Shown here: in pieces, positions 6,772 to 37,920 of the stretch
Numbering within the stretch: position 1 is the first letter of the stretch
Layout: each line of letters opens with the position of its first letter
Translations under genes and position numbers: made by a program
NCBI GenBank assembly: GCA_022828145.1
Contig: JAJEJA010000095.1
Span: forward strand, 1-64,000
Source: Candidatus Poribacteria bacterium
GTDB lineage: Bacteria; Poribacteria; WGA-4E; WGA-3G
Direction: 5' to 3'
DNA length: 64,000 bases
The notes under the pieces: generated by a model
Told to the model about the DNA's origin: nothing
Seen by the model: the letters and a program-made list of their open reading frames with translations, nothing else
The model's database searches: none

Positions 6772-9700
6772 ATGCAAAGCCTAACCCAAAAACGTTGCAC
6801 AAATTGTGGGTTTCTCAATCCATCTGTGAAGTTCTGTGGGGACTGCGGATGTGAGCTTGATAACAACGAAACACCTATCAGTGCAACACCGATCAGCAAA
6901 GCAGTCAGCAAAGCAGAGAGGCGTCAACTGACAGTTCTATTTTGCGATGTTATTGACTCAACAGCATTGACAGAACAATTAGATCCAGAAGATTTAAGAC
7001 AAGTGTTAGATGCATATCGAGCATCTGTCGCAGCTGTTGTTTTGGAATACGATGGACATATCGCGCAATATTTCGGAGATGGAATTCTTGTCTACTTCGG
7101 ATATCCCATCGCACATGAAGACGCAACACGGCGGGCTGTTCAAGCAGGTTTGGGAATCGTCGCTGGTTTAGAAACACTGAATTCACAATTGTTAGAGATG
7201 TTCGGTATCCAGATACAGGTACGTCTCAGTATTGACACCGGTTTGGTTGTTGTATGGGAAATCGGAACACCCAAAAATAAAACTGAGCAACGCTCCCCTT
7301 TAGAAAGTTATAACGGAGAACGTTATCACGGTGATGCAATAGATATTGTGGGAAAAACACCCAATATTGCTGCACGAATGCAACAGATCGCACCACCGAA
7401 CGGGATCGTGATCGGTGATACAACACTCAGATTAATTGAGGGTCTCTTCACATATCAGGACTTAGGTACAATAACACTGAAAGGTATCTCTCAACCTGTC
7501 CCGATATACCAGATACTTGAGGAACATCCCGACAGCACACTGCCAGCATTCAGACGTGAACAGACAAAACTACCATCACACGATGGCATGACACCAATAA
7601 TTGGTAGAGACCAACACGTTTCTACCCTTAAAGATAGATGGGAACTTGCTCTAAAATCATCTGGACAGGTCGTCCTGATTGAAGGGGAGGCGGGAATCGG
7701 GAAATCTCGTATCGTCGCCGTTATTGCTGACACTGTTACATGTTACAATGGTGCTGAAGCAGATGCACAAATATTAGAATGTCGCGGATCACCAGATTCA
7801 CAAAACAGTCCTTTATATCCAATCCTCACACTACTAAAACAGCAACTCTTAAAGTTTGGAGAGATGGACACGGGTGAAAAACGACTCGTAAAACTGGAGG
7901 AGTTCCTGAACAGAAACGATATCAGGGCAAATCAACTCCCTGTTTTGGCTGAACTATTAGAAATTGATGCAAACTATCAACCCGTTGCATTGAAACCAGA
8001 ACAACTCCGAAGACGCATTTTACAAACACTCGTTAGAATTTTCTTAAGAACCGCTCAACGTAAACCTCTTCTCCTTATCGCTGAAGATTTACATTGGGCA
8101 GATCCATCTACAATAGATTTCTTACATCTGTTAATCTCTCGCATGGAAAAAAATCCAATACTTGCTATCCTTACATTACGTGGAGAGGTTGAGGTTAATC
8201 AAGATAAAACACAAGCCGCAAGTAGAGCAAAACTCAATTCACTAACAGGGTTTAGATGGGTAACCGATATCTCCTTAGAACGCATGAGTAGAGAACAGGT
8301 GTTTCAGATGATCTCGGAAGTCGCAGGAGATCACGCTATACCTTCAGATGTGTCCAAACAGATAGCTGAAAAAACCGAAGGTGTTCCTTTTTTTGTTGAA
8401 GAAATAACACGCATGGTGATTGAATCTGACATGCAAGATATTGATGTTACGACAGATATACCAGCGACTCTACAAGCATCATTGACAGCACGACTTGACC
8501 GACTGGGTGATCGGAAAGAAATAGTACAACTTGGCGCAACACTCGGTAGGGAATGGACTGCAGAATTACTGCATAAAGTCATGGTCAGCATAACTGAAGA
8601 ACCGACAACAGATCAGATACTGACACATGCTGAAAAAACGACAGTTTCGCACCCGTTAACAGATCAGATGAACAATCTGCAATGGCTTGAAAATGAGTTA
8701 AATTACCTGATTGAAGCAGATATATTAAGGTCAAGAATGACCCATGAAAACAAACTCGTTTACACTTTTAGACACCCGTTAGTCCAAGAAACGGCTTATC
8801 AAGGACTCTTAAAAAGTACACGTATTGCATACCATAGACGGATTGCTACAGTGTTACGTAGGTCATTCGGTGATGTTGTTCGGACACAACCTGAATTGGT
8901 TGCATACCACTATACGGAGGGAGAACTCCCCGAACGCGGTATTGAGTATTGGCAACAGGCTGGACAACGTGCAGTCGTTCGGTCTGCTAATGTTGAAGGG
9001 ATTCGACACCTTACACAAGGTTTAACGTTGTTAGAAACTTTACCAGACTCTCCAGCACGGGCAGCACGGGAACTGGTGCTACAGACAACCTTGGGACCAG
9101 CTTTGATAGCGACGATGGGGTATGCAGCACGTGAAGTAGAAGAAACTTATGTACGCGCAAAAGAACTCCTGGAAACAATGCCAAACAGCGAAAGGATGCC
9201 ACTCCGATTTCCTATTCTCTTTGGACTGTGGTTGTCATACCTCGTTAGAGCGAAACTGCAAACTGCACGGGAACTGGGGGAACAGTGTTTAGTAATGGCA
9301 GAACAACAAGACGACGAAGTATTACAGGTAGAAGCACATCGCGCATTAGGAGCAACACTCTTCTATCTCGGGGAGCTAAAGATGGCACGCGCACACATTG
9401 AAGCAGGTATTTCACGATATGATCCACACCAACATCCAGTCCATGCATTTTTTCACTATCTTGCTGATCCTGGAATGACTTTACACGCTTATGCCGCCCC
9501 ACTCATGTGGTGTTTAGGGTATCCAGAACAAGCTATAGATAAATTCCAAGAGTCACAGCAGATGGGTGAGGAACGACCACACCCGTTTAGCAAAGTAATC
9601 TCATTACATTTTGGTGCTCTGATGTATCAACAGCGTGGAGATGCAGGAAAAGTCAACGAATACGCTACAGAACTCATAGCAATATGCAAAGAACACGGAT

Positions 9701-10353
9701 TCACTGTATGGGAACCTACTGGGAAGATCATGAAAGGGTGGGCATTACTACAGGAATCGCACGATACAAACGAAGAAGCAATTTCCCTCATCCGAGAGGG
9801 GCTTCTCGGATGGGAATCTAATCGGTCACGGGTATTGCGTCCCTTTTATTTAGGTATTTTAGCACAAGCATATATGCAAACAGGAAGAATCCAAGACGGA
9901 CTTCAGACTATTAATATCGCATTAGAGGCAGTTGCTGAAAGTGGTGAACGCGCAAATGAGGCTGAACTCTATCGCCTGAAAGGGGAACTTCTACTAAAGG
10001 CTGATAGTCTTCTCATAAAGGTAGATATGGATACAGGTAAACAAGAAAATAAGAACAATCATTCACTATATGAACGTGAAGCAGAAGTTTGCTTTGAAAA
10101 AGCAATAGATATAGCACAACGTCAAGAAGCAAAATCTTGGGAAATACGCACAGTTGTCAGTTTTAGCAAACTATTGATCGCACAGAATCGGCATGACATC
10201 GCATACCAGAAGCTTGAGATGATATGCGATTGGTTCACGGAAGGTTTTGATAATGTTGACCAGAAAGAAGCGCGCGCTTTACTACACAAATTAAGTCAGA
10301 AACTTTGTAACGAACAAAATAAATTACATACCTCTCAAAATCGGAAGGACTGA
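6772..10353 (+). CDS. Class III nucleotidyl cyclase / AAA ATPase / TPR protein
   Basis: Multidomain signalling protein of 1193 residues. Order: a zinc-ribbon-like N-terminus (C9, C12, C22, C25); a class III cyclase domain (about 50-260) with metal-binding D59 in 'FCDVIDST' and D103 in 'FGDGILVYFG'; an AAA/STAND-type ATPase (about 280-560) with Walker A 'GEAGIGKS' (K311) and Walker B 'LLLIAEDLHWAD' (E438-D439); then a long alpha-helical TPR array (about 740-1180). This architecture is widespread as a sensor in large-genome bacteria: TPRs probably gate the ATPase and cyclase. Both cyclase aspartates are present, so activity is plausible; whether it makes cAMP or cGMP is not clear. No good ribosome site precedes the ATG, yet the frame upstream is closed. 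The downstream TIM-barrel gene starts 5 bases after the stop. Confidence 0.88.
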   Translation: MQSLTQKRCTNCGFLNPSVKFCGDCGCELDNNETPISATPISKAVSKAERRQLTVLFCDVIDSTALTEQLDPEDLRQVLDAYRASVAAVVLEYDGHIAQYFGDGILVYFGYPIAHEDATRRAVQAGLGIVAGLETLNSQLLEMFGIQIQVRLSIDTGLVVVWEIGTPKNKTEQRSPLESYNGERYHGDAIDIVGKTPNIAARMQQIAPPNGIVIGDTTLRLIEGLFTYQDLGTITLKGISQPVPIYQILEEHPDSTLPAFRREQTKLPSHDGMTPIIGRDQHVSTLKDRWELALKSSGQVVLIEGEAGIGKSRIVAVIADTVTCYNGAEADAQILECRGSPDSQNSPLYPILTLLKQQLLKFGEMDTGEKRLVKLEEFLNRNDIRANQLPVLAELLEIDANYQPVALKPEQLRRRILQTLVRIFLRTAQRKPLLLIAEDLHWADPSTIDFLHLLISRMEKNPILAILTLRGEVEVNQDKTQAASRAKLNSLTGFRWVTDISLERMSREQVFQMISEVAGDHAIPSDVSKQIAEKTEGVPFFVEEITRMVIESDMQDIDVTTDIPATLQASLTARLDRLGDRKEIVQLGATLGREWTAELLHKVMVSITEEPTTDQILTHAEKTTVSHPLTDQMNNLQWLENELNYLIEADILRSRMTHENKLVYTFRHPLVQETAYQGLLKSTRIAYHRRIATVLRRSFGDVVRTQPELVAYHYTEGELPERGIEYWQQAGQRAVVRSANVEGIRHLTQGLTLLETLPDSPARAARELVLQTTLGPALIATMGYAAREVEETYVRAKELLETMPNSERMPLRFPILFGLWLSYLVRAKLQTARELGEQCLVMAEQQDDEVLQVEAHRALGATLFYLGELKMARAHIEAGISRYDPHQHPVHAFFHYLADPGMTLHAYAAPLMWCLGYPEQAIDKFQESQQMGEERPHPFSKVISLHFGALMYQQRGDAGKVNEYATELIAICKEHGFTVWEPTGKIMKGWALLQESHDTNEEAISLIREGLLGWESNRSRVLRPFYLGILAQAYMQTGRIQDGLQTINIALEAVAESGERANEAELYRLKGELLLKADSLLIKVDMDTGKQENKNNHSLYEREAEVCFEKAIDIAQRQEAKSWEIRTVVSFSKLLIAQNRHDIAYQKLEMICDWFTEGFDNVDQKEARALLHKLSQKLCNEQNKLHTSQNRKD

Positions 10354-20070: not shown

Positions 20071-20658
20071 GTGGAAAGAACTGAAGCATTACTCATTGAT
20101 CATCTTCGTGAAGGGGATGAAACAGCACTTGCACCACTGGTTGAGAAATATAAACGTATGGTGCATCGCCTCGCAATGCAGATAACGAAAAATCACGAGG
20201 ACGCTAACGACGTGATGCAAGAAACCTTTATAAAGGTATATCAGTCAATTCACACCTTTCGGCAGGAGGCAGCTTTTGAAACATGGGTGTATCGTATCGC
20301 TGTCAATGAGGCACTCAATTTCGTCAAACGACGCGAACGACGACGGGAATCTTCACTCGAAACTACAGATGAATCAGAGTTTAACACTGAAACACTATGG
20401 AAAGCGAAGATAAAAAATGACCCAGAAATACAAGCAGAGAAAGCCGAACTACGTCACTGGGTTACAAAAGCAGTCAATAGTCTTTCACTTAAACATCGGA
20501 TTGTTGTTATCCTACATGAATTAGAAGGGTTAACACATGCTGAAATAGCATCAATCTTGAATTGTTCTGAAGGAACTGTTCGCTCAAGACTGCACTATGC
20601 ACGGAAACAACTCAGGTCTTTGCTAAAACCTTATGTTGATGCTACCTCAGATTTTTAG
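20071..20658 (+). CDS. ECF-family RNA polymerase sigma factor
   Basis: Extracytoplasmic-function sigma factor of 195 residues starting at GTG, with GAAGGAGA 11 bases upstream. Region 2 (about 20-90) has 'HRLAMQITKNHEDANDVMQETFIKVYQ' and 'FETWVYRIAVNEALNFVKRR', the -10-binding signature. Region 4 (about 130-185) has 'VVILHELEGLTHAEIASIL' and 'SEGTVRSRLHYARKQLR', the -35-binding helix-turn-helix. It should direct polymerase to a small envelope regulon. The next gene encodes a zinc-finger anti-sigma factor, the expected partner. A TATAAT at 19991-19996 could be its -10 box, though no good -35 partner is visible. Confidence 0.95.
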   Translation: MERTEALLIDHLREGDETALAPLVEKYKRMVHRLAMQITKNHEDANDVMQETFIKVYQSIHTFRQEAAFETWVYRIAVNEALNFVKRRERRRESSLETTDESEFNTETLWKAKIKNDPEIQAEKAELRHWVTKAVNSLSLKHRIVVILHELEGLTHAEIASILNCSEGTVRSRLHYARKQLRSLLKPYVDATSDF

Positions 20659-20760
20659 TAAGCTGCCAACTATAGTCTACTATTGGTAAAATTCAGATAA
20701 TGAACAGATAATCCTTGGGGAGCGGTTTCTAAACTATAGAAATTGAAACCGACATCAACC

Positions 20761-21669
20761 ATGAAACTTAAATGTAACGCTATACAGAGTTTAATATCAG
20801 ATTATATAGATGATACGCTCAATAAAAATGATGTAGCAAAGGTAGAAACCCATCTCCAATTCTGTACAAAGTGTCAACGGGAGATTGCTGCTATCAGAAA
20901 AACGCGTGATCTTGTTATTGATTATTATGTAGAACCTGTAGCCTCAGAAAATTATTTCCATCAATTTGAGGTGGAATTACACCGTTCTCTTCAAAAGAAG
21001 GGACCAACATCACTGAACCAACGTTTAAAGACATCCGCTGCACAGTTCCTATGGTGTCTGCTAACCCAACTCAGGCAGAGCATCAGCAAGTATAATGACA
21101 CACGGATGAACACTTTAACTGTAGGCGCGCTCCTACTCTTAATTGTATCTGGATTTGTCGCAACACATTTTCTCAATCAGGAAATTTCTCATCCACCTAA
21201 GGTATACCTTAATGGGGCAGCGGGTGGGCAAATAGCCGATGGAGAAACAGATATAGATGACCAACAAAAGAAGTCACTTCATCAACATAGAACTAACTGG
21301 AAAGATTCCAGCGAAGTAAGTTCACCTGCACTCACAGCAAATGTTGAGAAAGAAGGGTATTGGAGACTCTCACAGCCTTTAGCAAACGATACAGAAGAGC
21401 ATATTATTTTTATACATATCAGCAATGATCGTTCTGCACCAGGCGATACTGATTCTGAAGTTGTTGTTTATGAAGAGCCAACGATATTAGAGAGAAAATC
21501 TCCTCTTCAAGAGGATTATGTTGCACTCCCGTTAGACCTTCATGTAGATCCTTTTTCTGAAAAACATCCGAGAAAACAACGAAAACTGTCAGGTTTTGTT
21601 GTGAAGTTAATACATCTACCTACAGAAATGTTAACTATTCCAGAGTTCTACGACTTGATTAAATTGTAG
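20761..21669 (+). CDS. Zinc-finger (ZAS-type) membrane anti-sigma factor
   Basis: Predicted partner of the upstream ECF sigma factor, 302 residues. The N-terminal cytoplasmic domain carries the zf-HC2 pattern: C5, H31, C35 and C38 in 'HLQFCTKC', the zinc-binding anti-sigma core. One membrane span ('LTVGALLLLIVSGFVATHFL', about 120-140) leads to a periplasmic domain of about 160 residues that I do not recognise. I prefer the ATG at 20761; the frame also opens at a TTG 18 bases earlier, and neither has a clear ribosome site. Binding of the sigma factor and release by intramembrane proteolysis are the family expectation; HtrA-type and RseP proteases are encoded elsewhere in the window. Confidence 0.85.
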   Translation: MKLKCNAIQSLISDYIDDTLNKNDVAKVETHLQFCTKCQREIAAIRKTRDLVIDYYVEPVASENYFHQFEVELHRSLQKKGPTSLNQRLKTSAAQFLWCLLTQLRQSISKYNDTRMNTLTVGALLLLIVSGFVATHFLNQEISHPPKVYLNGAAGGQIADGETDIDDQQKKSLHQHRTNWKDSSEVSSPALTANVEKEGYWRLSQPLANDTEEHIIFIHISNDRSAPGDTDSEVVVYEEPTILERKSPLQEDYVALPLDLHVDPFSEKHPRKQRKLSGFVVKLIHLPTEMLTIPEFYDLIKL

Positions 21670-21860
21670 TTGTAATGAATATCGACTTAACACAGTATTT
21701 ACGATACCTTACGCAATCACCTTGATATAAATATACTATCATGGTTAAGCACAATAGACAGGACATTTGGACAGATCCATCCGTGTTCTGACAATTTTAG
21801 GAGTGGAGTTAATCCACGTTTCCCGTAGTTTCTTTTATACATATTTCAAAGGAGAATGTA

Positions 21861-24800
21861 ATGAATCCAAGAATTTTAGGCGTAATTGGTGGTCTTGCAC
21901 TTGTAGTCGCAATCCTGTCGCCTTTCTTAATGGGTAGTTCCAAGAAGGTAGAGGAGCTCTACACAGACGCTGAGACCTTATATGGTCAAGCAGATTATGA
22001 AGGCGCAATTGACAAGTACATTGAAGCACTTGAAGAATCGACAAAACGCGGTGTGAAAACCGAAGTAATTGACAAAGATTTCACAACACTTGCCAACTTT
22101 CAAATCGCTGTCTGTTATTCTCGGCTAGCTGAACAGTCCTTAGACCACAATCACTACGAGACTGCATTAGACTATATCCAAAAAGTTGCGCTCAATGCAA
22201 CTGTTCCTAAACATCAGGAAGGTTTAACATATTTATGGGGACATATTCTGTTTCGGACTGAAGAGTATGAGCTGGCAGAAGCAAAGTTCAAACAACTGAT
22301 TGAGAACTTCCCCAACAGTCTCAATGTGGAAAATTCATGGTATGCTATCGGACAATTGAACTATAAGTTAGGTAACTATGAAGACTGTCGCACGGCTTTC
22401 AATAACATCCTTTCAGGCTTCCCTAATTCTGAATTTAAGGATGATGCTCAACTCCTCATCGCTCAATCCTTTCTTGATGAAAGGAACTGGGAGCAAGCTT
22501 ATCCAGAATTTGATAAATTTGCTACCGAAGAATTCAAGAATTACACCGAACTTCATGCCGAGGCGATGTACAAAGCCGCTATGTGCTTAAACCAACTCAA
22601 CAGACACGACGAAGCCATTAGTCGTTACACGAATTTTATCACACAATATCCTGAGAATAAGCTCGTAACTGCAGCATACTTCGACCAAGGTGCAATATAT
22701 TCTAAACAGAAAGACTATGATAATGCACGCGTAAACTACGAGTTAGCTCTGCAAAACACTGCAGATCGTGGTGTACAATCCGAGATTCAGACAGCAATAG
22801 GACAAACATATTTCGATCAGGAAGATTTTGAAAACGCGATCGTCGCCTACACAGTACTTCTGGATGAATATCCAGATAGTGACTATAGAGATGAAGCAAA
22901 ACTCGGCATAGCTGACAGTCAGTTTAAATTGGAACGTTGGAGTGACGCAGTTACCTCGTATCAAGCAGTAATTGATCACGAAAAAAGTGCTGCAACAGAT
23001 GATGGTTCCATTGATACGAGTTTTACTCCCTACTGTGCTATCCAAATCGCAGAGGCATATTACAAACTCGGAACCGATCAACGCGATGCAGGACAGATGG
23101 CAGAAGGAGACGCTAACCTTATACTCGCTTTAGAATGGTATCAAAAGACTGTTGACGATTTTCCTGAAGACCCTGTCGCACCACATGCACTCTATGGTGC
23201 CATCTGGACGTTGAATGATCTGGGACGAAAGGAAGAACTGGAAAAAGTAGCCAACGATTTTATTCAAAAAAATAAAGACGACAACGAGTTTGACATCCTT
23301 GCTGCTGAAGTTCAACTACGGTTTGCGGATATGAAACGCACCGAATTTAAACAATACGTTGAAGCCGCAGAAGAATACGCAAAACTGTGGGATTACAAAC
23401 CACTACCGAAATTCCATCGGCTTAAACTGATGGGCAAATTCTTTGAAGGTAAATCATACTATGAAGCAGCAAAACCTGAAGGATTCCAAGAAGGTGATAC
23501 TACCGAAAACTTCAATACTGAATACCTTCAAAAATCTGTTGCCGCATATCAACTCGCTATCACAACATTTTCAGATGAGGCATTCCAACCCGGCATTACC
23601 GAAGGTCGTTACAGTGACTTTCCCGATCGTATTGCACAAATTGAAGCCTGTATTATGAACGAAGCTCTTTCACACGAGATGATCGGAGATTGGGAAACAG
23701 CACGACAACGATACGCAACGATTCCTGAAGGCAGTGATTACTATGAGCGATCACTTCTTTTTACAGCAAACAGTTATGTCAGGGAAGGCAATAAGACTCA
23801 AGCTATTGACTATTACAATACCATCCTGCCAAAACTCGCTGATAAGGATAACCGATCTCTTGCAGATATTAAGTTAGCTGACCTACTACGGGCAGAGGAA
23901 CAATTTGAACAGGCCGCTGCACAGTATCAAACTGTTGTTGACAATAATCCAACAGGTGATTATGCAGATGACGCTCTTTATTTAATTGGCCTCTGTTATT
24001 ACCACGCTTCAGTAGACAAACCAGAACTTGCCGATAAGGCAATCGCAGCTTTCAATAGAGTCATTGAGGAACACGGGGATAGTCCAAACGCCATTGAAGC
24101 GTATTACGGGTTAGTCCTTGTGTATAGCGACGCAGCACAAAAACGTGGGGATACATCCAAGTGGCCATTCGTAATCCAAGCTGCTGATGCTGCCAACGAG
24201 AAGTTCGCGGATAGTAATGATGAACTGGTTCTTCGAACACTCGGACAGATTGATCTCATAAAAGCCTCCGCGATTGAAAATACAGATGGAGGTGACGTTG
24301 AAGCACTTGTGGCAAGTTTTAGTCGCATTATTGATAACCCTGGCGCACCAGAAACTGCTCGCATACGCGCACAACTGAAAATCGGGCATACTTACTACAA
24401 GAATGAGAATTTTCAAGAGGCACTTGCTGCATATAAACTGTTCGTTGAGACCTATCCGGACAATGAAATCGCCCCAAACGCACAATATCAAGCAGCTGTC
24501 TGTCACTATCAGATCGCTCTGAAAGCACAGGAAGCAAATGACACTGATTCCGCTCAACTCGCTTATACCAATGCAGTGAGTGAAGCAGAAAAAGTCGCAG
24601 ATATGACCGAGAATGTGGATAACCTTATCAGTGCATACTATACACTCGGTTTAGCACAGTTAGGGTTAAAAAACAACGCTGCCTCAATAGAAGCTTTCAA
24701 GCAGGTTACTGCAAGGGAAGGGCAGACAGAAGATGACGACCGTAAGAATCTCATCTCTCAAGCACATTCAAGACTCGCAGAATTGCTGAGTGGTGTAGGA

Positions 24801-26579
24801 GACTATGCTGGCGCTGTCAAAGAGTATCAGTATATAATCGCTAACACCGAAGATGATGATCTACGTGGACGCTCATACTTCGCAATGGCGTACGCTCAAG
24901 ATGAACATCTTAAGATGTATGATGATGCATTGATGAATTATCAAAAGGCAACTGAATTGGCTGGAGATCAGATTAAAGCCCAAGCATATTATCGCATGGG
25001 ACTGATCTACCAAGAAAAAGTCAAGCAGCTTGATAAGGCATTAGGTGTATTTGAAACTTTGATAGAAAACTACGGTTCAGATCAGAACGCCAGCGTCGCT
25101 TCTATGGTCGCTGATTCTCGTCTACGCAGTTCTGAACTGTTAGTTGGTCTCGGACGTTCAGAAGAGGCAATCGCTACCACACTCGCCGCAATCGAAGGAT
25201 ACAAAACAAACCCGAACGCGACAGTTTCACAGAAGGTAGCTGCACAATACAACCTCGGTTTTCTATATTCTGGTACAGCACAAAAGCTCTATCCTGAAGG
25301 CGAAATACCTGCAGGTTTTGATATGAAGCCATACATCGAAACAAGTGGGTTAGCTGCTGCATCTTTCTTTGAAGTCGGAAAAATAGCAGCACCGATAGAG
25401 CAAGCTGATAAGAAAACTGTCATCCCTTATGTGGAGCGGTCCCTCTTCCAAGCAGGTCAGATCTATTATTCTCTTGGTGTTGGTTACAAACGGCATGAAG
25501 AGTTGGTAAGTTCGCTTGAACCGCTTTCACAATTTGTGAAGTATGCAGACGCTGGCGTGTTCCCCGCTTCAGATGTTCTTGCAGACAACGTGGTGACGGC
25601 ACTAAACTATTTAGCATCTGCTAATTTTGATCTTGGACGCATGCAAGTCGGTTTAGACGAAGAAATGTCTATACAAGCTGTAGCATACTTTACTACTTCC
25701 GCAAAGTTGTTTAACGATCTAGTCAAACGCTACCCGAGTTCTCCAGATGCTGCATTATGGCAATACCAAGCTGGAGAAGCATTTTACACGACTGAGCAGT
25801 TTGACAAAGCGATTGTTGAGTACGATAAAGTCAGGAAAATCAACAAATCGCATGAAAAAGCACCTGAATCTTTATATGCAATCGCTACTTGCTATCAATA
25901 CCTGTCAGAGGAAGCAAAAGATGCTGGCAATGCAGATGCAGAGAAAACATATCTTGATAAGTTGTTTGAGACGAATGAAATCCTTGTAGAGGAATTTCAG
26001 AATAGCAAATTCGCTGGAGAAGCCTTTATCAATATCGGAAATAAACACTATAATTCCGCATTAGACAAAGAGCTTGAACAAACTGAGCGAATTCGTCTGT
26101 TCCGACTCGCAATCGAGAACTATGAACGTGCCATGGCATCTCCCGGGCTCAGTGATGAATCCAAGAGCATTGCAGAAGGTTTCCGAGATGATACTGCCAG
26201 CTTCCTTGCACATAACGAATATGAACAAGCTGACGACGCACTCAAGAAGGCAGGGAGAGCAGGTAAAAAGTCTGATATTGAAGCAGCAATTGAAATGTTC
26301 AAGTCAATCGCAAAAGAATATCACACGACCAAGTATGGAGACCTTGCCTACGGCAGATTAGGTGATGCCTATACAATGCTGGCAGATAAAGAAGAACACT
26401 ATTTTGCAGATGCATTATACTATTACAGATTCCTGCCTAAAAAATATAATGTCGGTAACCCGACTGATGCTCAGGTCAAAGATGCAATTGATTACTGCAC
26501 TCGTGAGGCAGCAGAAGTTCGGGATTACATGAGAGCTAAGGGTATACCTGAACGCCAAGAACCTACGGGTGACAACTAA
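21861..26579 (+). CDS. Giant TPR-repeat protein, membrane-anchored
   Basis: Protein of 1572 residues, almost entirely tetratricopeptide repeats. A short N-terminal signal-anchor ('ILGVIGGLALVVAILSPFLM', about 4-24) places the array outside the cytoplasm. TPR units recur every 34-37 residues, for example 'AETLYGQADYEGAIDKYIEAL', 'AEAKFKQLIENFPNSLNVENS', 'IGQTYFDQEDFENAIVAYTVL' and 'IGHTYYKNENFQEALAAYKLF'; many carry the 'YP' turn of YbgF/BamD-type repeats. No enzyme domain is visible. It may be a scaffold for an envelope complex. AAAGGAGA precedes the ATG by 5 bases. It follows the ECF/anti-sigma pair by 190 bases and could be a target of that sigma factor. Confidence 0.85.
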   Translation: MNPRILGVIGGLALVVAILSPFLMGSSKKVEELYTDAETLYGQADYEGAIDKYIEALEESTKRGVKTEVIDKDFTTLANFQIAVCYSRLAEQSLDHNHYETALDYIQKVALNATVPKHQEGLTYLWGHILFRTEEYELAEAKFKQLIENFPNSLNVENSWYAIGQLNYKLGNYEDCRTAFNNILSGFPNSEFKDDAQLLIAQSFLDERNWEQAYPEFDKFATEEFKNYTELHAEAMYKAAMCLNQLNRHDEAISRYTNFITQYPENKLVTAAYFDQGAIYSKQKDYDNARVNYELALQNTADRGVQSEIQTAIGQTYFDQEDFENAIVAYTVLLDEYPDSDYRDEAKLGIADSQFKLERWSDAVTSYQAVIDHEKSAATDDGSIDTSFTPYCAIQIAEAYYKLGTDQRDAGQMAEGDANLILALEWYQKTVDDFPEDPVAPHALYGAIWTLNDLGRKEELEKVANDFIQKNKDDNEFDILAAEVQLRFADMKRTEFKQYVEAAEEYAKLWDYKPLPKFHRLKLMGKFFEGKSYYEAAKPEGFQEGDTTENFNTEYLQKSVAAYQLAITTFSDEAFQPGITEGRYSDFPDRIAQIEACIMNEALSHEMIGDWETARQRYATIPEGSDYYERSLLFTANSYVREGNKTQAIDYYNTILPKLADKDNRSLADIKLADLLRAEEQFEQAAAQYQTVVDNNPTGDYADDALYLIGLCYYHASVDKPELADKAIAAFNRVIEEHGDSPNAIEAYYGLVLVYSDAAQKRGDTSKWPFVIQAADAANEKFADSNDELVLRTLGQIDLIKASAIENTDGGDVEALVASFSRIIDNPGAPETARIRAQLKIGHTYYKNENFQEALAAYKLFVETYPDNEIAPNAQYQAAVCHYQIALKAQEANDTDSAQLAYTNAVSEAEKVADMTENVDNLISAYYTLGLAQLGLKNNAASIEAFKQVTAREGQTEDDDRKNLISQAHSRLAELLSGVGDYAGAVKEYQYIIANTEDDDLRGRSYFAMAYAQDEHLKMYDDALMNYQKATELAGDQIKAQAYYRMGLIYQEKVKQLDKALGVFETLIENYGSDQNASVASMVADSRLRSSELLVGLGRSEEAIATTLAAIEGYKTNPNATVSQKVAAQYNLGFLYSGTAQKLYPEGEIPAGFDMKPYIETSGLAAASFFEVGKIAAPIEQADKKTVIPYVERSLFQAGQIYYSLGVGYKRHEELVSSLEPLSQFVKYADAGVFPASDVLADNVVTALNYLASANFDLGRMQVGLDEEMSIQAVAYFTTSAKLFNDLVKRYPSSPDAALWQYQAGEAFYTTEQFDKAIVEYDKVRKINKSHEKAPESLYAIATCYQYLSEEAKDAGNADAEKTYLDKLFETNEILVEEFQNSKFAGEAFINIGNKHYNSALDKELEQTERIRLFRLAIENYERAMASPGLSDESKSIAEGFRDDTASFLAHNEYEQADDALKKAGRAGKKSDIEAAIEMFKSIAKEYHTTKYGDLAYGRLGDAYTMLADKEEHYFADALYYYRFLPKKYNVGNPTDAQVKDAIDYCTREAAEVRDYMRAKGIPERQEPTGDN

Positions 26580-29895: not shown

Positions 29896-31536
29896 TTATT
29901 CGGGTCTAAATATAATAATATCGATTCTACGGTTTTTTTCCGGCGAATCCTCGTCAATAAGTTGAGTTTCACCATGGCCAACTGCAGTCAGACGACTTTC
30001 AGATACGTTACCTTTGTTGATCAAGTAAGTTTTTACAGAGTTTGCCCTTTTTTCAGTTAGTACCTTATTGGCACCCGCTGCTCCAAGCGAATCAGTATGT
30101 CCTTCAATCTTAGCAGCATAATCTTTAAACGCCTCCTGTTGCAGTATTTCAGCGAGTTTCAAAAACGTAGGAAAATAATCTTCTCTGAGACGTGTGCTTG
30201 TGGTAGCGAATAGATTACCACTTATCCTAATCAGTACACCTCCCTCCCGTTCAATGATTGCTGCTTTTGGTATCTTTTTCGTTGCTTCAACTAAAGCTGC
30301 CTGTTCTGTGTCATGCTTTTCAGTTTTCTGAATAGCACGTTGCATGTAATCGTTACCCTGCAGTGCAGCCTCTTCGGCGGCAGTGTACTCCTTATTGGCA
30401 AATGCCGTTTCAGCATTTACGAGGGCTGCCGTAGCCTCTTCATACAATTGCGATGCTAACTTAGGAACCCTTGTGTTAATGTTTTCTGTAATAACTTCTT
30501 TTAGACTTGCGACAGCATTCTTCGCGCGTGTAATCTTTTCATCAAGTTCCTTCTTGGCACGAATTCGGAATTCAGCGACTTCTGAAGTAGAAATTACAGT
30601 GTTCGCTGTCTGTTCAGATTCTCCAGCCATTTGACTGGCAACCTTAAAGTTGTTATCTTTATGAGCATTTCTCGCGTCTACTAATTGCGTTTGTGCTTTT
30701 TTGTATGGTTCAGGAGCGTGGATGTTTGCATTGAGCGATTCTGCATGCTTGATTTTTACATCCGCACGTTCAATGGCAATTAGCGAAGAAGTTTCAGCAG
30801 CAAAACGCAGTTTCTGTTTCTGAAGGGCTTGTTCAAAAAGGTTGTCTGCTTGAGTCTTTGATTCTAATGCTGCTTTCTCTGCTTCAGTAAACTCTTTTCG
30901 TTGTAAGTGAGATGTGGCACGAGCAATTGTAGATTGGACGCGTTCATAATCGGCAGTTTCTTCAATACCAGGATATACCTGCTTGGCAAAGGTGACAAGC
31001 AATTCAGAACCTGTGAGAGGAATACGGATTTCTGCTCTACGTAGCACATCTTGTGTTTTTTCAAGATCCGTTGAGAGTGAACCGGCACGTTGTTTCTCTT
31101 CCTGAATTTCTTTCAAGGCTTGTTCATATTCTTCAGTTTTTATCTCATTGAGTAACTTCTGCAGATCATATTCATACTCTCTTTCTGAAATGAGTTCTTG
31201 AAACACCTGTTCCCGAATTGAAGCTATCTCTTCCCGTATCTGTTGCTGCTTTGCCTGATACAATGCAATCCGTGCGACAAGTTCAGCCTGATTAGCAAAT
31301 TCCATGCTTTTTGCAATGTCGCCGTTCTCTTGAGCCTGCTTAGCATATTTCAAGAGTTTCATTGCACGACCATATTCGTCGGCTGCAAACTGCTCAGCAT
31401 TTAATTCTTCTGCATCGGAGACGGCTTTCTGTCCATTCTGCAGCTGCGTCTCAAGAAGAACAATATCCATCTTTTCTGACACACATCCGATGCTGATCAA
31501 ACAATATAGTATCATCAACACAACAAGAAACCGCAT
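29896..31536 (-). CDS. OmpA-family lipoprotein with DUF4398-like coiled coil
   Basis: Outer-membrane-anchored, peptidoglycan-binding lipoprotein of 546 residues. The signal peptide ends at the lipobox 'LISIGC' (Cys 18). Residues about 25-400 are helical and coiled-coil-like with DUF4398-type repeats ('AEQFAADEYGRAMKLLKYA', 'FANQAELVARIALYQAK'). The C-terminal OmpA domain (about 410-546) has 'AAKIEGHTDSLGAAGANKVL' and 'LTEKRANSVKTYLI' with 'ESRLTAVGHGE' and 'NRRIDIII', which bind meso-diaminopimelate. It starts 12 bases after the smaller DUF4398 lipoprotein stop, so the two form an operon. AAAGGA precedes the ATG. Confidence 0.92.
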   Translation of the reverse strand: MRFLVVLMILYCLISIGCVSEKMDIVLLETQLQNGQKAVSDAEELNAEQFAADEYGRAMKLLKYAKQAQENGDIAKSMEFANQAELVARIALYQAKQQQIREEIASIREQVFQELISEREYEYDLQKLLNEIKTEEYEQALKEIQEEKQRAGSLSTDLEKTQDVLRRAEIRIPLTGSELLVTFAKQVYPGIEETADYERVQSTIARATSHLQRKEFTEAEKAALESKTQADNLFEQALQKQKLRFAAETSSLIAIERADVKIKHAESLNANIHAPEPYKKAQTQLVDARNAHKDNNFKVASQMAGESEQTANTVISTSEVAEFRIRAKKELDEKITRAKNAVASLKEVITENINTRVPKLASQLYEEATAALVNAETAFANKEYTAAEEAALQGNDYMQRAIQKTEKHDTEQAALVEATKKIPKAAIIEREGGVLIRISGNLFATTSTRLREDYFPTFLKLAEILQQEAFKDYAAKIEGHTDSLGAAGANKVLTEKRANSVKTYLINKGNVSESRLTAVGHGETQLIDEDSPEKNRRIDIIIFRPE

Positions 31537-32205: not shown

Positions 32206-32472
32206 CTAATAGGCAGGACGTTCTGTGTAAACACTCACCTTGCGGCGATATTTATCTTTTCGCTCAAACCAGACATACCCGTCTATTTTTGAGAAAAGCG
32301 TATAGTCCCTACCAACACCGACATTATTCCCAGCATGCAAATGCGTTCCACGTTGCCGCACGAGAATACTACCGGCGGTTACATAGTTACCTGAAAACCT
32401 TTTGACACCAAGCCGTTTGCCTATACTATCCCGACCATTACGTGTACTTCCGCCACCCTTCTTATGTGCCAT
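32206..32472 (-). CDS. rpmA: 50S ribosomal protein L27
   Basis: Large-subunit protein near the peptidyl transferase centre, 88 residues. '[16 protein letters not shown]' at the N-terminus and '[19 protein letters not shown]' are diagnostic. I chose the ATG at 32472 since AGGAGG lies 9 bases upstream and the protein then begins exactly like other L27; an upstream in-frame start adds eight odd residues. It overlaps the rplU stop by 11 bases, which suggests translational coupling. Confidence 0.98.
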
Positions 32473-32800
32473 CAGATTCAACCTCCTCTGCGCCAATCGC
32501 AGTAATTTTAACTCTTGTGTATGATTGACGGTGACCTAACTTACGTTTGTAACCTTTTCTACGTTTCGACTTAAAAACGATGAGCTTCTTTGCACGTCCT
32601 TGCTCAATCACTTCACCGGTAACAAACATGTTCTCAAGGTACGGTGTTCCGGTTTGGAGTTGACCATCTTCACCGGCAATCGCTAAAACGGAGGGAAAGG
32701 TAACCGTTTCACCCACAGCATTGTCCAATTTTTCTACATCAATAAGGTTTCCTACCTCAACACGATGCTGTTTCCCACCGCTTGCAAATACTGCATACAT
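32462..32800 (-). CDS. rplU: 50S ribosomal protein L21
   Basis: Large-subunit protein of 112 residues. '[17 protein letters not shown]' and the basic C-terminal '[17 protein letters not shown]' with 'TRVKITAI' are typical. AAAAGGAG lies 10 bases before the ATG. It is the first gene of the rplU-rpmA operon, with a sigma70-type promoter and a leader of about 135 bases upstream. Confidence 0.98.
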
Positions 32801-33075: not shown

Positions 33076-34623
33076 CTAATCTAAGTATAGTTCCTCACCG
33101 TTAGCGACGAAGATGCGATAATCCTCAAGATGCAGGTCAGCATCAGGTTCAAGGGTCAATTCCAACTTTAAATTCCGTTTAAGTTCTCGCAATTTCGTAT
33201 ACATCTGTGCGTTGATATGTGAGATGATGTGGTCATTAGCGAGAATACGGAGCTTAGAGTGCTGCGTCTGTCGATATGCAGTCTTAATCGCACGAAATAA
33301 CCTTATCGCGACAGTTTCAATAGAGAGAATTGTACCATGACCTTCACAGTAAGGACACTGTTCTGTGAGCAAAGTAGATAGGCTCGGACGGGTGCGTTGA
33401 CGCGTCATTTCAACCAAGCCTAAATCAGAAAAATGGAGGATGTTTGTCCGTGCTTTATCCTTTCGCAGTGCTTCTCGAAGGATTTTGAACACCTGCTTCC
33501 GATGTGCATGTGCCTCCATGTCAATAAAGTCAACAACGATAATCCCTCCTAAATCGCGTAACTGAATTTGACGCACGACTTCATCAACCGCCTCAAGATT
33601 GGCACTTAGAATCGTATTATCTGGATCAGATTGTCCAACGAAACGGCCAGTATTTACATCAATAGACACCATCGCTTCTGTTTGTTGAATGATTATATGT
33701 CCACCACACTTAAGCCAGATTTTCTCACTAAGTGCTTTCTGTAGTTCTTCCTCAACGCCGTATGCCTCAAAAAGCGCGGTGTCGTTCTTGTACAGAGAAA
33801 TCCGATCCAGCATATTCGGCATTATTGAGGTGACATAATCAACTGTTTCCTTATAACCAGATTGTGAATCGATCAGAAGTTGTTTAACGTCCTTTGTAAG
33901 CATGTCCCGAACAATACGATTCGCGAAACTTACATCTTTAAGAATTAGGCTCGGTGCAGATTTGCGTTTTGCTCTTTCCCCCACCTGCTTCCACTGATTG
34001 ATCAGCGATCGGATTTCTGCACCAAATTCCTCTTCACTCAACCCCTCAGCAGCGGTTCGAATAATAAAACCGCCATCAACATCTGCTTTCAAGTTCTGTG
34101 CTAAGTCCCGCAATCGATCACGTTCACTTTCCGACTCCAACCGGCGTGAAACACCAATAGTAGATGAATTCGGCAGATAGACAACATAACGTCCTGGCAG
34201 TGTGATATTACTCGTAACACGTGCTCCTTTACTACCTATAGGTTCTTTACAAACTTGAACAAGTATCTCTTCTCTCTTTGAAATAAGGTCAGTAATTAGG
34301 TAAGGAAAACCTCTGCCCCCCCGTGACTTGTTTGGCGGTGTTGCCTGCATGTCTAATGTCGGTAATCCATCATCCCCAGTTCCGTTAAGTGAATTATTAT
34401 ATTTCAAGTCAGATATGTGTAGGAAAGCATGTCGTTCTAAACCTATATCAACAAAAGCGACCTGCATTCCCGGTAAAACATTTTCAACCCGTCCCTTATA
34501 TAGATTCCCTAAAACAGGTTTTACCGCTTTTCGCTCAATCTGAATTTCATTTAATACGCCTTCCTCCAATACAGCACATCGCGTTTCATACTCATCATCA
34601 GAAATCAGTATCTCCTTTTCCAT
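33076..34623 (-). CDS. rng: Ribonuclease G (Rne/Rng family)
   Basis: Endoribonuclease for rRNA maturation and mRNA decay, 515 residues. An N-terminal S1-type domain ('NLYKGRVENVLPGMQVAFVDIG', about 41-125) is followed by the RNase E/G catalytic core with the metal-binding aspartates in 'VSIDVNTGRFVG' and 'IIVVDFIDM', and the zinc-link 'CPYCEGHG'. No long RNase E-type scaffold tail is present, which favours RNase G. AGGAGG lies 11 bases before the ATG. A small frame may overlap its start (see 34598). Confidence 0.95.
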   Translation of the reverse strand: MEKEILISDDEYETRCAVLEEGVLNEIQIERKAVKPVLGNLYKGRVENVLPGMQVAFVDIGLERHAFLHISDLKYNNSLNGTGDDGLPTLDMQATPPNKSRGGRGFPYLITDLISKREEILVQVCKEPIGSKGARVTSNITLPGRYVVYLPNSSTIGVSRRLESESERDRLRDLAQNLKADVDGGFIIRTAAEGLSEEEFGAEIRSLINQWKQVGERAKRKSAPSLILKDVSFANRIVRDMLTKDVKQLLIDSQSGYKETVDYVTSIMPNMLDRISLYKNDTALFEAYGVEEELQKALSEKIWLKCGGHIIIQQTEAMVSIDVNTGRFVGQSDPDNTILSANLEAVDEVVRQIQLRDLGGIIVVDFIDMEAHAHRKQVFKILREALRKDKARTNILHFSDLGLVEMTRQRTRPSLSTLLTEQCPYCEGHGTILSIETVAIRLFRAIKTAYRQTQHSKLRILANDHIISHINAQMYTKLRELKRNLKLELTLEPDADLHLEDYRIFVANGEELYLD

Positions 34624-34845: not shown

Positions 34846-36420
34846 CTACTCTTTCCGTGGTGTCAACGTAACAACAGGGGTTATCAGTTCTCCCATTGAG
34901 ATGCCACCATGTTGGAACCCTCCTTGAAACTGCCGCTTATACTTATAAAATTCGTTTGGATAGACGAAATAATAATCGTCTTTTGCGAGAATATAATCCT
35001 TGCTCGCGTTTTCGGCTGGTAACCGATATTCCTCTGGCTTAGAAATATACACGGCTTGGTTCTCATCACATCCTAAGTTATTGCCGATTTTGAAACGTAG
35101 GCTTGTGCTTGTATCGCGATTGCCATACGCGCGAGTTGCACGATTGCAGAACTCTGAACCGTGATCTGTCGTAAGCACAACATGAACCCCTTGATCAGCT
35201 ATCATCCGTAAAATATCGTAAAGGGATGAATGTGCAAACCAAGAACGCGCCAAAGCACGAAATGCAGGTTCGTCAGGGGCAAGCTGTTGCAGTACTTCTG
35301 ATTGTGAACGTTGATGCGTTAAAATATCTATAAAATTCACAACCAACGCAGATAAACTAACTTGTGCTGCTGCAGCAACCCGTTTCTTATATTCACTGCC
35401 CCCGCGTAAATCAAAAATCTTAAAATACTTAACACCAGGTTTTATACTGATGCCGTTTCTCTTTAAATACTCCTCAAGTAACTGTCGTTCATACTGGTTT
35501 GTGCTTGTACCATTGTCCGATTTCTCCTGCCAGTATTCCGGGTAATTCCTTGCTAAATCGGCAGGAAATAACCCGCTAAATAGACCATTCCGAGAATACA
35601 TTGTTGCACTCGGTAAAATAGAAAAACTATAGTCTAACTCAATGGAAAAATATGGATACAATAGCGATTCTATCGCCATCCAATGGTCAAGACGAAAACA
35701 ATCTACGACTATAAAATAGATCGGAACATTCTCTTTAAGTAATGGCAACACATGGCGGTCCAAAACATCTACAGATAACGGTGGTCTATCCACACCACCG
35801 TTAACCCATTCTGGATAATTCAATGCTACAAAATCAGAGAATTCGGTGTTGCACTCTTTTTTTTGTTCCAAGTGTGTCTCTTGTAATCCCTGCTCGGCTA
35901 ACCGATCAGATTGTAGATCCCATTTGAGTAATTTGACGTAAATATCAATCCAATCTTGCCAACCTGGTTGTGATGCCTTTAGTGTGCTAATCATATTAAA
36001 ATCATTGGTGTAACGACTCGGTATTTGCGTTTCCACTATGTGTTGCTGTTCGAGTACCCGTTTGAGTGTAGAAGCAATCTGAGCAACCCCGATCGGTTTT
36101 ACCAAAAAATCTGTCACCTGTTTACCGAGGGCAACATCAACAAATTTATCATCACTGGACTGTGTTACGAGGATTACAGGAACCTGTGTGTTAATTGTCC
36201 GGATAACATCCAATGTCGCCATGCCATCTTTCCCGGGCATCACTTGGTCAAGTAAGATTGCATCGTAACCGGTTTTTTGCTGCTTCAGCAATTCAATCCC
36301 ATCTTCCCCATTCGTAGCAGCCGTGACGACATATCCGCGTGTTTCAAGAAAACGTCTATGTGGTAGCAATGCCTCTATTTCATCGTCTATCCAAAGTATT
36401 TGGTGTGATTTCTGTTGCAT
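34846..36420 (-). CDS. PorX-like response regulator with PglZ/alkaline-phosphatase-type domain
   Basis: Two-domain regulator of 524 residues. The receiver domain (about 5-125) has acidic D12-D13, phospho-acceptor D58 in 'AILLDQVMPGKDG' and Lys in 'DFLVKPIG'. The rest is a PglZ domain of the alkaline-phosphatase superfamily: metal-type D240 in 'FIVVDCFRLDHW', candidate nucleophile T273 in 'ILPSATMYSRNGLFSGL', D419-H420 in 'VVLTTDHGSEF', H504 in 'FQHGGIS'. These motifs match PorX of Bacteroidota, which controls type IX secretion and whose PglZ domain cleaves oligonucleotides. No DNA-binding domain is present. The gene starts 18 bases after the stop of a PorY-like kinase gene, so the pair is almost certainly one system. 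Type IX structural genes are not seen in the window. Confidence 0.88.
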   Translation of the reverse strand: MQQKSHQILWIDDEIEALLPHRRFLETRGYVVTAATNGEDGIELLKQQKTGYDAILLDQVMPGKDGMATLDVIRTINTQVPVILVTQSSDDKFVDVALGKQVTDFLVKPIGVAQIASTLKRVLEQQHIVETQIPSRYTNDFNMISTLKASQPGWQDWIDIYVKLLKWDLQSDRLAEQGLQETHLEQKKECNTEFSDFVALNYPEWVNGGVDRPPLSVDVLDRHVLPLLKENVPIYFIVVDCFRLDHWMAIESLLYPYFSIELDYSFSILPSATMYSRNGLFSGLFPADLARNYPEYWQEKSDNGTSTNQYERQLLEEYLKRNGISIKPGVKYFKIFDLRGGSEYKKRVAAAAQVSLSALVVNFIDILTHQRSQSEVLQQLAPDEPAFRALARSWFAHSSLYDILRMIADQGVHVVLTTDHGSEFCNRATRAYGNRDTSTSLRFKIGNNLGCDENQAVYISKPEEYRLPAENASKDYILAKDDYYFVYPNEFYKYKRQFQGGFQHGGISMGELITPVVTLTPRKE

Positions 36421-36438
36421 TTCTTTCCTTAATACACG

Positions 36439-37920
36439 CTAATATACATTACACGGCAGACGAATTTCAAATGTAGTTCCATCAGAACTACTTTCTACTA
36501 ACCTAATACTACCGTGATGATAGTCTCTAATAATCCGTCGTACGATAGTCAACCCAAGTCCCCAACCGTGTGTTTTTGTTGTCATACCTGGTTCAAATAT
36601 TGCCCGTTGATTTTCTGCTGCAATACCACTTCCGTTATCCGAATAACGTATGATCACTTGCTTATGTCGATTGTCATATTCTGGTTCTATTTCAATCTGT
36701 CCGACCTCTTTTTGCATTGCATCCAATGAGTTACGAATTAAATTCTCAAAAACCCACTGTAGCAATTGTGCATTACCTATAATGACAGGCACATTATAAG
36801 GTGTAATACCGATATCAACATCACGACTAATCTGAGGCAGTCGCTTCTCAAAGTATGTTAGAACTTCGGCGAGTACCTCTGCGAGGTCCACCTCAGTCAT
36901 AGTTGGTTCAGTGCCGATCAAGCCAAATCTTGTAGTCGTTTTCTGCAATCGTTCAAGGTCGTTCTGCATGTTTGCAGATAGTTCCCCAAGGACTCTGTCC
37001 CCTGTTTCCTCACTGTGTTCATCTAATAGTTCTGTCCATGCTAACAGAGCCGAGATAGGCGTACCGAGTTGATGTGCGGTCTCTTTGGCTAATCCTCCCC
37101 ATATTGCTGCATGTTCATAAGATTTTATCCGCATATAGATCAGAAGGGAACCAAAACCGAAAAGCAAGAAAACAACTGCCAATACAATGGGTGTTACCAA
37201 TAAACCGTAAAACGATCTAATCTCATAGTAGAAATACCCTTCTTGCCATTCTGGTATAGTCTGAATTGCTGCGAAAGAAAGTGTATTTTGAACAAATGTT
37301 TTTGCGCGTTCTTTCTCTTCAAGAGTCGCCTTTTCGGCAGTGAGTACATCGTTCCACATCTGCCATTTTTGTGGCGTTTTATCAGTATCCGTTATTGCGA
37401 ATGGGAGTTGTGCCATCTCACTCGGTGCCACATCCCCATAGTAGAAATATCCCGCAATTTTTCTATCTTCTTGAAGGAACGGTATTTTTCTCGGATCATT
37501 CTTACTTCTCATCCGTTCCAAAGATGAGCGTAATAGTGCTTGCTCTGTATCTGTTAACGAAATAGTACCATCTTCGTTGACTTTTTCATCTAATTTTGTA
37601 TCAACACCTTGAGAAATTTCAACATTCCCATCAGAGTCCGTTATAATAAAAGAGAACCGACGCACCCTATTCTCAGCATAAAGTTCCTGCCGCATGACTG
37701 AAAGTAAACGTTCCTGCAATTCCCGATCTTCAATACTCGGTAATTCAATCGCAAGATTCACAAAAATTTCTATCTGTGATTCTATTTCAGCATTTAAATC
37801 TGAAATTTGACGCGTATAATACGTAAATACAATAATCAGTATAACTACACCAACACTGAAATAGATGAGCATTAACCGACTGGTCGGGTAAGTAGAAGTA
37901 ATGTTACGATACCACCTCAA
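36439..37920 (-). CDS. PorY-like sensor histidine kinase
   Basis: Membrane sensor kinase of 493 residues. Two membrane spans (about 16-35 and 232-260) enclose a periplasmic sensor of about 195 residues with no recognisable fold. The dimerisation/phosphoacceptor helix has H283 in 'GLAKETAHQLGTPISALLAW', the same motif as PorY kinases. The catalytic domain has the N box 'FENLIRNSLDAM', G1 'DNGSGIA' and G2 'TKTHGWGLGLTI'. It heads the operon with the PorX-like regulator (18-base gap), so phosphotransfer to D58 of that protein is expected. The signal sensed is unknown. Confidence 0.88.
   Translation of the reverse strand: MRWYRNITSTYPTSRLMLIYFSVGVVILIIVFTYYTRQISDLNAEIESQIEIFVNLAIELPSIEDRELQERLLSVMRQELYAENRVRRFSFIITDSDGNVEISQGVDTKLDEKVNEDGTISLTDTEQALLRSSLERMRSKNDPRKIPFLQEDRKIAGYFYYGDVAPSEMAQLPFAITDTDKTPQKWQMWNDVLTAEKATLEEKERAKTFVQNTLSFAAIQTIPEWQEGYFYYEIRSFYGLLVTPIVLAVVFLLFGFGSLLIYMRIKSYEHAAIWGGLAKETAHQLGTPISALLAWTELLDEHSEETGDRVLGELSANMQNDLERLQKTTTRFGLIGTEPTMTEVDLAEVLAEVLTYFEKRLPQISRDVDIGITPYNVPVIIGNAQLLQWVFENLIRNSLDAMQKEVGQIEIEPEYDNRHKQVIIRYSDNGSGIAAENQRAIFEPGMTTKTHGWGLGLTIVRRIIRDYHHGSIRLVESSSDGTTFEIRLPCNVY

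Follow-up and report, generated by a model that had tools for sequence, protein, structure and literature searches.

A PorX–PorY gene pair in Candidatus Poribacteria and its probable link to a type IX-like secretion branch

The PorX–PorY gene pair

The 64,000-nucleotide stretch analysed here (the window; positions 1 to 64,000 of contig JAJEJA010000095.1, assembly GCA_022828145.1, from Candidatus Poribacteria bacterium) carries on its minus strand adjacent genes for a sensor histidine kinase and a response regulator with a PglZ domain, which we assign to PorY and PorX, respectively (Table 1). In Bacteroidota, according to the accessible parts of the published work, PorY and PorX interact, and PorX dimerises with phosphorylation or zinc, acts as a phosphodiesterase, engages the extracytoplasmic function (ECF) sigma factor SigP, and binds PorL/GldL via its receiver (PMC5005315, PMC10951265, PMC11320123). 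We consider the poribacterial pair together with candidate components of the type IX secretion system (T9SS) encoded elsewhere in the genome.

The regulator joins a CheY-like receiver (Response_reg, E 8.5e-22 in a Pfam-type domain scan) to a PglZ core (E 5.4e-18), and over residues 7–522 of its 524 it matches the NCBIfam equivalog model T9SS_RR_PorX (NF052313) at 578.4 bits against a cut-off of 300. The Protein Data Bank (PDB) chain 7pv7_D aligns with residues 4–522, nearly end to end (E 6.1e-117). In PorXFj, the two-zinc/nucleophile residues are D237, T271, D360, H364, D414, H415, and H499, with D54 as the phosphoacceptor, as given in the available text of PMC11320123. Matched by motif and order, D54, D237, T271, D414, H415, and H499 correspond to D58, D240, T273, D419, H420, and H504 of the window protein, and the zinc ligands D360 and H364 to D365 and H369; the full set of seven metal and nucleophile residues is present. 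An earlier note on this DNA had proposed a PorX-type regulator with D58, D240, T273, D419, H420, and H504, all of which are confirmed. Further, the receiver is predicted to be phosphorylatable, with D58 accompanied by D12/D13 and K108. In an alignment of 100 sequences (the window genome's two copies and one each from 98 other loci), every sequence has the same seven metal/nucleophile residues, and D58 is an aspartate in 96, the four exceptions all being poribacterial paralogues. By profile, residues, and architecture, the regulator gene is a bona fide PorX, and the pair adds a further member to an established family.

The kinase ends 18 bp short of the porX start on the same strand, and the PorY-type H-box ascribed to it earlier is indeed there, reading WGGLAKETAHQLGTP. 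Its HATPase_c domain scores above cut-off (E 7.8e-21) and its HisKA domain at 21.9 bits, under the cut-off of 26.9. By BLAST, a relative of this kinase lies directly upstream of the close full-length form of PorX (PorX1) in all 15 loci sampled from ten poribacterial families. With an alignment of 15 kinases as query, exactly one kinase per genome was matched at E<=1e-60 in a set of 18, of which six are poribacterial and twelve of the Fibrobacteres–Chlorobi–Bacteroidetes (FCB) type, and an AHQLGTP or AHQLGSP box could be read in 16 of these 18 loci, the regular expression giving nothing in the other two. The predicted structure of the kinase has a mean predicted local distance difference test score of 78 and a predicted template modelling score of 0.47; the best 50 of its 628 structure matches were kinases, and among these the modelled sensor fold gave no identification of a signal. 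The sensor region is probably extracytoplasmic. Taken together, the PorX profile, the key residues, the gene adjacency, and the one-kinase-per-genome distribution indicate at the sequence level that the gene pair is PorY–PorX.

Table 1. Features of the window and loci with sprA next to porX
Feature	Position in window	Strand	Basis or distribution
porX, response regulator (CheY-like receiver, linker, PglZ/alkaline-phosphatase-superfamily domain), 524 aa	34846..36420	-	ORF (open reading frame), domain, profile and structure matches
PorX receiver domain, residues 8-119, with D12, D13, D58, T86, K108 present	36064..36399	-	domain match and alignment
PglZ core, residues 235-427, with D240, T273 (nucleophile by homology), D365, H369, D419, H420; H504 lies beyond the core	35140..35718	-	domain match, homology, alignment
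porY-like sensor histidine kinase, 493 aa, TTG start, 18 bp upstream of porX	36439..37920	-	ORF, domain scan, genome distribution
PorY H-box WGGLAKETAHQLGTPISALLA, presumed phospho-acceptor His283	37039..37101	-	sequence reading
RNase E/G family gene, 222-bp gap downstream of porX	33076..34623	-	found in 19 of 24 poribacterial PorX1 loci and in 0 other loci of the same comparison
Two small genes after RNase E/G, by eye like rplU (L21) and rpmA (L27)	32206..32800	-	relatives in 12 and 9 of 24 poribacterial PorX1 loci
sprA-porX loci outside Poribacteria: L075, L078, L094, L098, L099, L102, L103, L104, L111, L113, L118, L121, L125, L128, L134			

PorX across phyla and the paralogue PorX2

Within a set of 84 genomes of Poribacteria, including that of the window, 83 have some match to PorX, and 77 have a full-length PorX1, with a stop flagged in five (a table read by hand). 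The remaining genomes hold only pieces (G006, G010), only the paralogue described below (G028, G040, G050), only a weak match (G024, E 3.9e-12), or no match (G003, 76% complete). A scan of species genomes extended this picture: among the best 80 of 549 loci, nine are titled Candidatus Poribacteria, eight of them at 75–88% identity and one at 53%, and the eight closest relatives uphold the earlier assignment of the window to a genome outside Bacteroidota. The other 71 of these 80 loci come from Zixibacteria, Latescibacterota, Krumholzibacteriia, KSB1, Ignavibacteria and kin, Chlorobiota, Kapabacteria, Kryptonia, Cloacimonadota, Calditrichota, Neomarinimicrobiota, Balneolaceae, and Bacteroidota, or are titled just 'bacterium'; we take these phyla to be of FCB type, a grouping that we presume for several of them. 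Thus, PorX outside Bacteroidota is common across many FCB-type phyla and not exceptional. In a quick, midpoint-rooted tree with Shimodaira–Hasegawa-like approximate likelihood ratio test (SH-aLRT) supports only, the poribacterial PorX1 and PorX2 sequences form one side of a branch with a support of 100; an import of PorX from Bacteroidota, which we considered, is unsupported by this topology.

Outside Poribacteria, PorX is often accompanied by the SprA translocon. SprA scores above cut-off in 14 of 15 non-poribacterial genomes that carry PorX. Of the 71 loci, 51 were counted with at least 3 kb upstream of porX, and 15 have sprA immediately before porX and in the same orientation (Table 1); a representative matches the SprA/Sov model TIGR04189 at 895 bits. 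By title, nine of the 15 are Ignavibacteria-type or Melioribacteraceae, five are Bacteroidota or Bacteroidetes, and one is 'Bacterium'. Five of these genomes (L075, L098, L099, L103, L128) gave no match to GldM_4th, the four run against the full GldM model gave none to it either, and three of the five gave weak GldL matches (E 0.006–0.045). Likewise, no GldM was seen in two Balneolaceae with full-length SprA. The gene order and co-occurrence, including in genomes without a recognised GldM, therefore tie PorX to the SprA translocon. A second recurrent neighbour, a cluster represented by TsaE, occurs near porX in 55 non-poribacterial loci, downstream and on the same strand among the matches listed.

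Poribacteria also encode PorX2, a second full-length copy at 38–49% identity, which a hand count places in at least 66 of the 84 genomes; in the window's genome it lies on contig 59 (L041:8194-9837). In a sample of 24 PorX2 loci, the neighbours are a GlcD/GlcE-like FAD oxidase (24 of 24), a DsbD-like protein (21), and a tetratricopeptide repeat (TPR) protein (20), with a PorY match near none of them. All 23 full-length copies keep the zinc residues and all 23 have an altered receiver: D58 is replaced by N, S, or C in 20, and the other three keep D58 and have D13 changed to S or N. The copy at L208 is broken into separate frames, with the checked receiver residues intact in the first piece. In the tree, the four PorX2 copies included fall within the poribacterial side, a nesting that the starred branches do not force. 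These substitutions suggest that PorX2 is a PglZ effector no longer dependent on phosphorylation.

Candidate type IX components, motor models, and the surroundings of porX

No type IX genes were seen in the scanned parts of the window, and to this extent the earlier note's statement of their absence stands; it fails for the genome, and the inference of a different export or stress programme under the pair's control is unsupported, since the genome encodes the C-terminal sorting domain (CTD), PorV-family, PorU-like, and divergent SprA-like proteins. The CTD model (Por_Secre_tail, TIGR04183) scores above cut-off in all 84 phylum genomes, with at least 59 matches in the window's genome, where 60 of 76 candidates were scored. 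The PorV family is above cut-off in 21 of 21 poribacterial genomes and in none of 14 control genomes, the window's genome having 16 matches, at least five of them above cut-off. The T9SS_sortase model (NF033707) likewise matches all 21 genomes (best match E 2e-81 or better), none above cut-off. The window's genome has three large PorU-like ORFs, on contigs 21, 38, and 59. Both of the two that were domain-scanned have a C25 peptidase, a C25 propeptide, and an FlgD_ig end, with the Pfam Por_Secre_tail under cut-off in one and unlisted in the other. On contig 21, a PorV-family match (86 bits, cut-off 90) adjoins the PorU-like gene.

The SprA/Sov model matches 83 of the 84 phylum genomes, just one of them (G006) above cut-off, which answers in part the earlier note's call for a genome-wide search: a sov-like gene was found, below cut-off, and no credible GldL or GldM. 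The SprA-like protein of the window's genome has 2181 aa, with three model matches in order along one 2197-aa frame. Ten poribacterial SprA-like proteins align together at 41–77% identity to the first, and a comparison of their profile with the SprA of G006 gave a probability of 99.1 and E 8e-19 over 1050 columns. The SprA of G006 (L159, contig 30) scores far above the rest of the phylum, which may reflect lineage variation or contamination. PorX co-occurs in Poribacteria with SprA-like, CTD, PorV-family, and PorU-like proteins. Judged by these matches, the genome of the window likely carries the outer-membrane parts of a type IX system, namely a divergent SprA/Sov homologue, PorV-family and PorU-like proteins, and CTD cargo.

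The motor models run on Poribacteria were GldM, GldL, and GldM_4th (PF12080), with GldK, GldN, SprE, and PorT outside that set. GldM matched none of 21 poribacterial genomes at E<=0.01, and no control gave a match; since the first run thus had no matching control, the search was repeated with likely carriers. At E<=0.1 among 27 genomes, the only matches came from the Bacteroidetes bin G104 (E 1.8e-13) and the window's genome (13.7 bits), the latter being the one match among six Poribacteria and not credible. GldL matched two of ten Poribacteria (E 2.9e-4 and 0.044), both within frames above 1,100 aa and not credible. Elsewhere, it matched G104 at E 0.008, adjoining the GldM gene, and six other FCB-type genomes weakly (E 0.005–0.09), of which a 311-aa frame in G100 and a 407-aa frame in G110 are hard to dismiss; the model is unspecific, matching 5 of 14 controls below cut-off. 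GldM_4th matched none of eight Poribacteria; its matches elsewhere were G104 (0.002), two other FCB-type genomes (about 0.09), and 2 of 14 controls below cut-off. The GldK match, the GldL-model frame, and the GldM match of G104 are consecutive; GldK and GldM score under their cut-offs, and NCBIfam gives no match for the GldL frame. A likely motor is therefore within reach of these models, though barely. No SprA match was found in G104, perhaps because the bin is incomplete. A likely gldK-L-M operon in a Bacteroidetes bin (L163) reaches just 50 bits for GldM and 17 for GldL, both under cut-offs, and therefore distant motors would be missed.

Around porX, the two small genes beyond RNase E/G are presumably rplU and rpmA, as judged by eye. 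Further downstream lies a gene for an OmpA-domain protein with DUF4398 (29896-31536), a relative of which occurs at 8 of the 24 poribacterial PorX1 loci. The ECF sigma gene claimed earlier for the window is present at 20071-20658, about 14 kb from porX, and is followed by an anti-sigma-like gene (20743-21669; 28 bits, cut-off 50). These two and a gene for a 1572-aa TPR protein are consecutive in 20071-26579 and likely form a separate regulatory unit; with this distance and these neighbours, control through the window's own ECF sigma factor is unsupported. The window also encodes a 1193-aa protein (6772-10353) that carries TPR repeats along with guanylate/adenylate cyclase and AAA ATPase domains. 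An Rfam scan of the window gave zero matches.

Proposed secretion control by PorXY, rival readings, and known systems

We propose that the poribacterial PorXY probably regulates a type IX-like secretion branch of SprA, PorU, PorV, and CTD proteins encoded elsewhere in the genome, acting through a phosphorelay and PglZ hydrolysis and without a recognised motor. By analogy with work on Porphyromonas and Flavobacterium, the PorY kinase would phosphorylate PorX at D58, and phospho-PorX would dimerise, its two-zinc PglZ site hydrolysing oligonucleotides as a zinc-dependent phosphodiesterase. As in the published systems, the output would set the expression or activity of the SprA-like translocon, the PorV-family proteins, the PorU-like C25 proteins, and the CTD cargo. 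The residues for the enzymatic and phosphorelay steps appear to be in place in the window PorX, with the GldL partner unrecognised; thus, PorXY would work here without GldL/GldM to bind, a step qualified by the weakness of the motor models. The link between PorXY and the translocon may be the older one, with binding to the motor added in Bacteroidota.

Several observations weigh against this proposal. It is wholly computational. The name PorY comes from context and distribution; the profile search and tree that the earlier note had envisaged for the pair served for PorX, which exceeded its equivalog cut-off, and gave no PorY profile among the best 25 of 72 NCBIfam matches. Seven of the 84 genomes lack a full-length PorX1, two of them fairly complete (G028, 94% in 4 contigs; G040, 95%), and PorX1 is perhaps not essential, although gaps in the bins would also account for this. 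The genes near porX in the poribacterial loci seen encode RNase E/G and apparent ribosomal proteins, not secretion components. The CTD model is also above cut-off in 1 of 14 controls. The best PorU-like match in the window's genome (E 1e-84) reaches 284 bits against a cut-off of 420, and two control genomes also match that model below cut-off. The C-terminal ends of the two scanned PorU-like ORFs fit FlgD_ig better than Por_Secre_tail, and these proteins could instead be gingipain-like C25 peptidases. The best SprA segment in the genome scores 67 bits against a cut-off of 200, the Pfam SprA_N model gives 26 bits against 27, no solved SprA in PDB was matched by sequence with the poribacterial protein, and the reference SprA above cut-off belongs to a poribacterial bin that is only 64% complete. 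Finally, the GldL/GldM motor is not recognised in Poribacteria; the models are insensitive, and hence this is no proof of its absence.

That insensitivity leaves appreciable room, short of an even chance, for an ordinary T9SS with PorXY, in which a GldL/GldM or analogous motor has diverged too far for the models; this would be compatible with the regulatory part of our proposal. The sub-cut-off operon of L163 and the lack of a GldM match in the two Balneolaceae and in further genomes that encode a full-length SprA fit such divergence, against which stands the lack of a credible poribacterial match to any of three models (GldM 0/21 and 1/6, GldL 2/10, GldM_4th 0/8). More tentatively, PorXY could be the ancestral regulator of a motor-free SprA–PorU–PorV–CTD branch common to Poribacteria and FCB-type phyla, with GldLM and the PorX contact added only in Bacteroidota and with the poribacterial PorX2 turned into a phosphorylation-independent PglZ effector at a redox GlcD/E–DsbD locus.

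A different emphasis would make nucleotide or RNA turnover signalling, for example the clearing of linear or cyclic oligonucleotides, the main job of a pair that is PorX/PorY by descent, secretion being one output among several. The intact PglZ site of PorX2 where its receiver is eroded, the RNase E/G gene after porX, and the TsaE-type cluster elsewhere are all in keeping with this, and the accessible text of the structural literature brings up roles without a direct link to T9SS (PMC11320123). However, RNase E/G and TsaE are housekeeping genes whose link to porX varies by lineage, and the co-occurrence of PorX with SprA across phyla, together with the sprA adjacency, points to secretion; we regard this emphasis as unlikely. 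As for a defence-related PglZ system of the bacteriophage exclusion (BREX) type in place of PorX, the regulator does match BREX_PglZ_3, but at 88 bits against a cut-off of 250 and the 578 bits of the PorX model, and the receiver and adjacent kinase fit PorX; membership in such a system is rejected on these scores, and we give it practically no credence.

The proposal bears on a gap in the literature. Kamke et al. (2014), in the sections available to us, described many poribacterial proteins with a Por sorting domain and no Por structural genes, leaving the export route open (PMC3909097). In the parts consulted, detections of T9SS in a 2016 survey were confined to Bacteroidetes (PMC4793230), and a 2024 paper describes T9SS genes as absent from phyla outside the FCB group (PMC11285876). 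Poribacteria lie outside the FCB phyla listed in the accessible text of the latter, and the present setting is in this respect a variant. No prior report of PorX, SprA, or PorU in Poribacteria was recognised in the accessible parts of the literature searched, which excluded subscription papers and preprints. Thus, PorXY, an SprA homologue, and PorV-family and PorU-like proteins offer a candidate for the missing CTD export pathway that is now directly testable, and the parts and tags suggest a route by which tagged surface proteins of sponge-associated Poribacteria may leave the cell.

Among known systems, PglZ of BREX shares with the window PorX the catalytic domain of the alkaline-phosphatase superfamily and differs in that the profile score of PorX is far under the BREX cut-off. 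PorX of Porphyromonas gingivalis and Flavobacterium johnsoniae (PDB 7pv7, 7pvk, 8ted, 8p6f, and 8thp, chains that we take to come from one or the other species) is homologous over its full length (E 6e-117 to 7e-114), with the same architecture, the counterpart of D58, and the seven zinc/nucleophile residues. It differs in setting: the window porX adjoins a kinase gene and precedes RNase E/G, in a host outside Bacteroidota with no recognisable PorL/GldL. PorY of P. gingivalis, to which the window protein is likened by context and distribution, is also a histidine kinase; further points of likeness are that none of the 18 genomes has more than one strong match and that the H-box could be read at 16 of the 18 match loci. 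Its gene lies at a separate locus from porX, according to the available text of PMC5005315, whereas the two are linked here. As to the T9SS of Bacteroidota as a whole, Poribacteria share with it CTD cargo, the PorV family, PorU-like C25 proteins, an SprA-like translocon, and PorXY, and differ in that SprA and the PorU-like proteins fall under curated cut-offs and the GldL/GldM motor is unrecognised. The poribacterial setting thereby separates two proposed functions of PorX, namely signalling to the secretion branch and binding to the motor.

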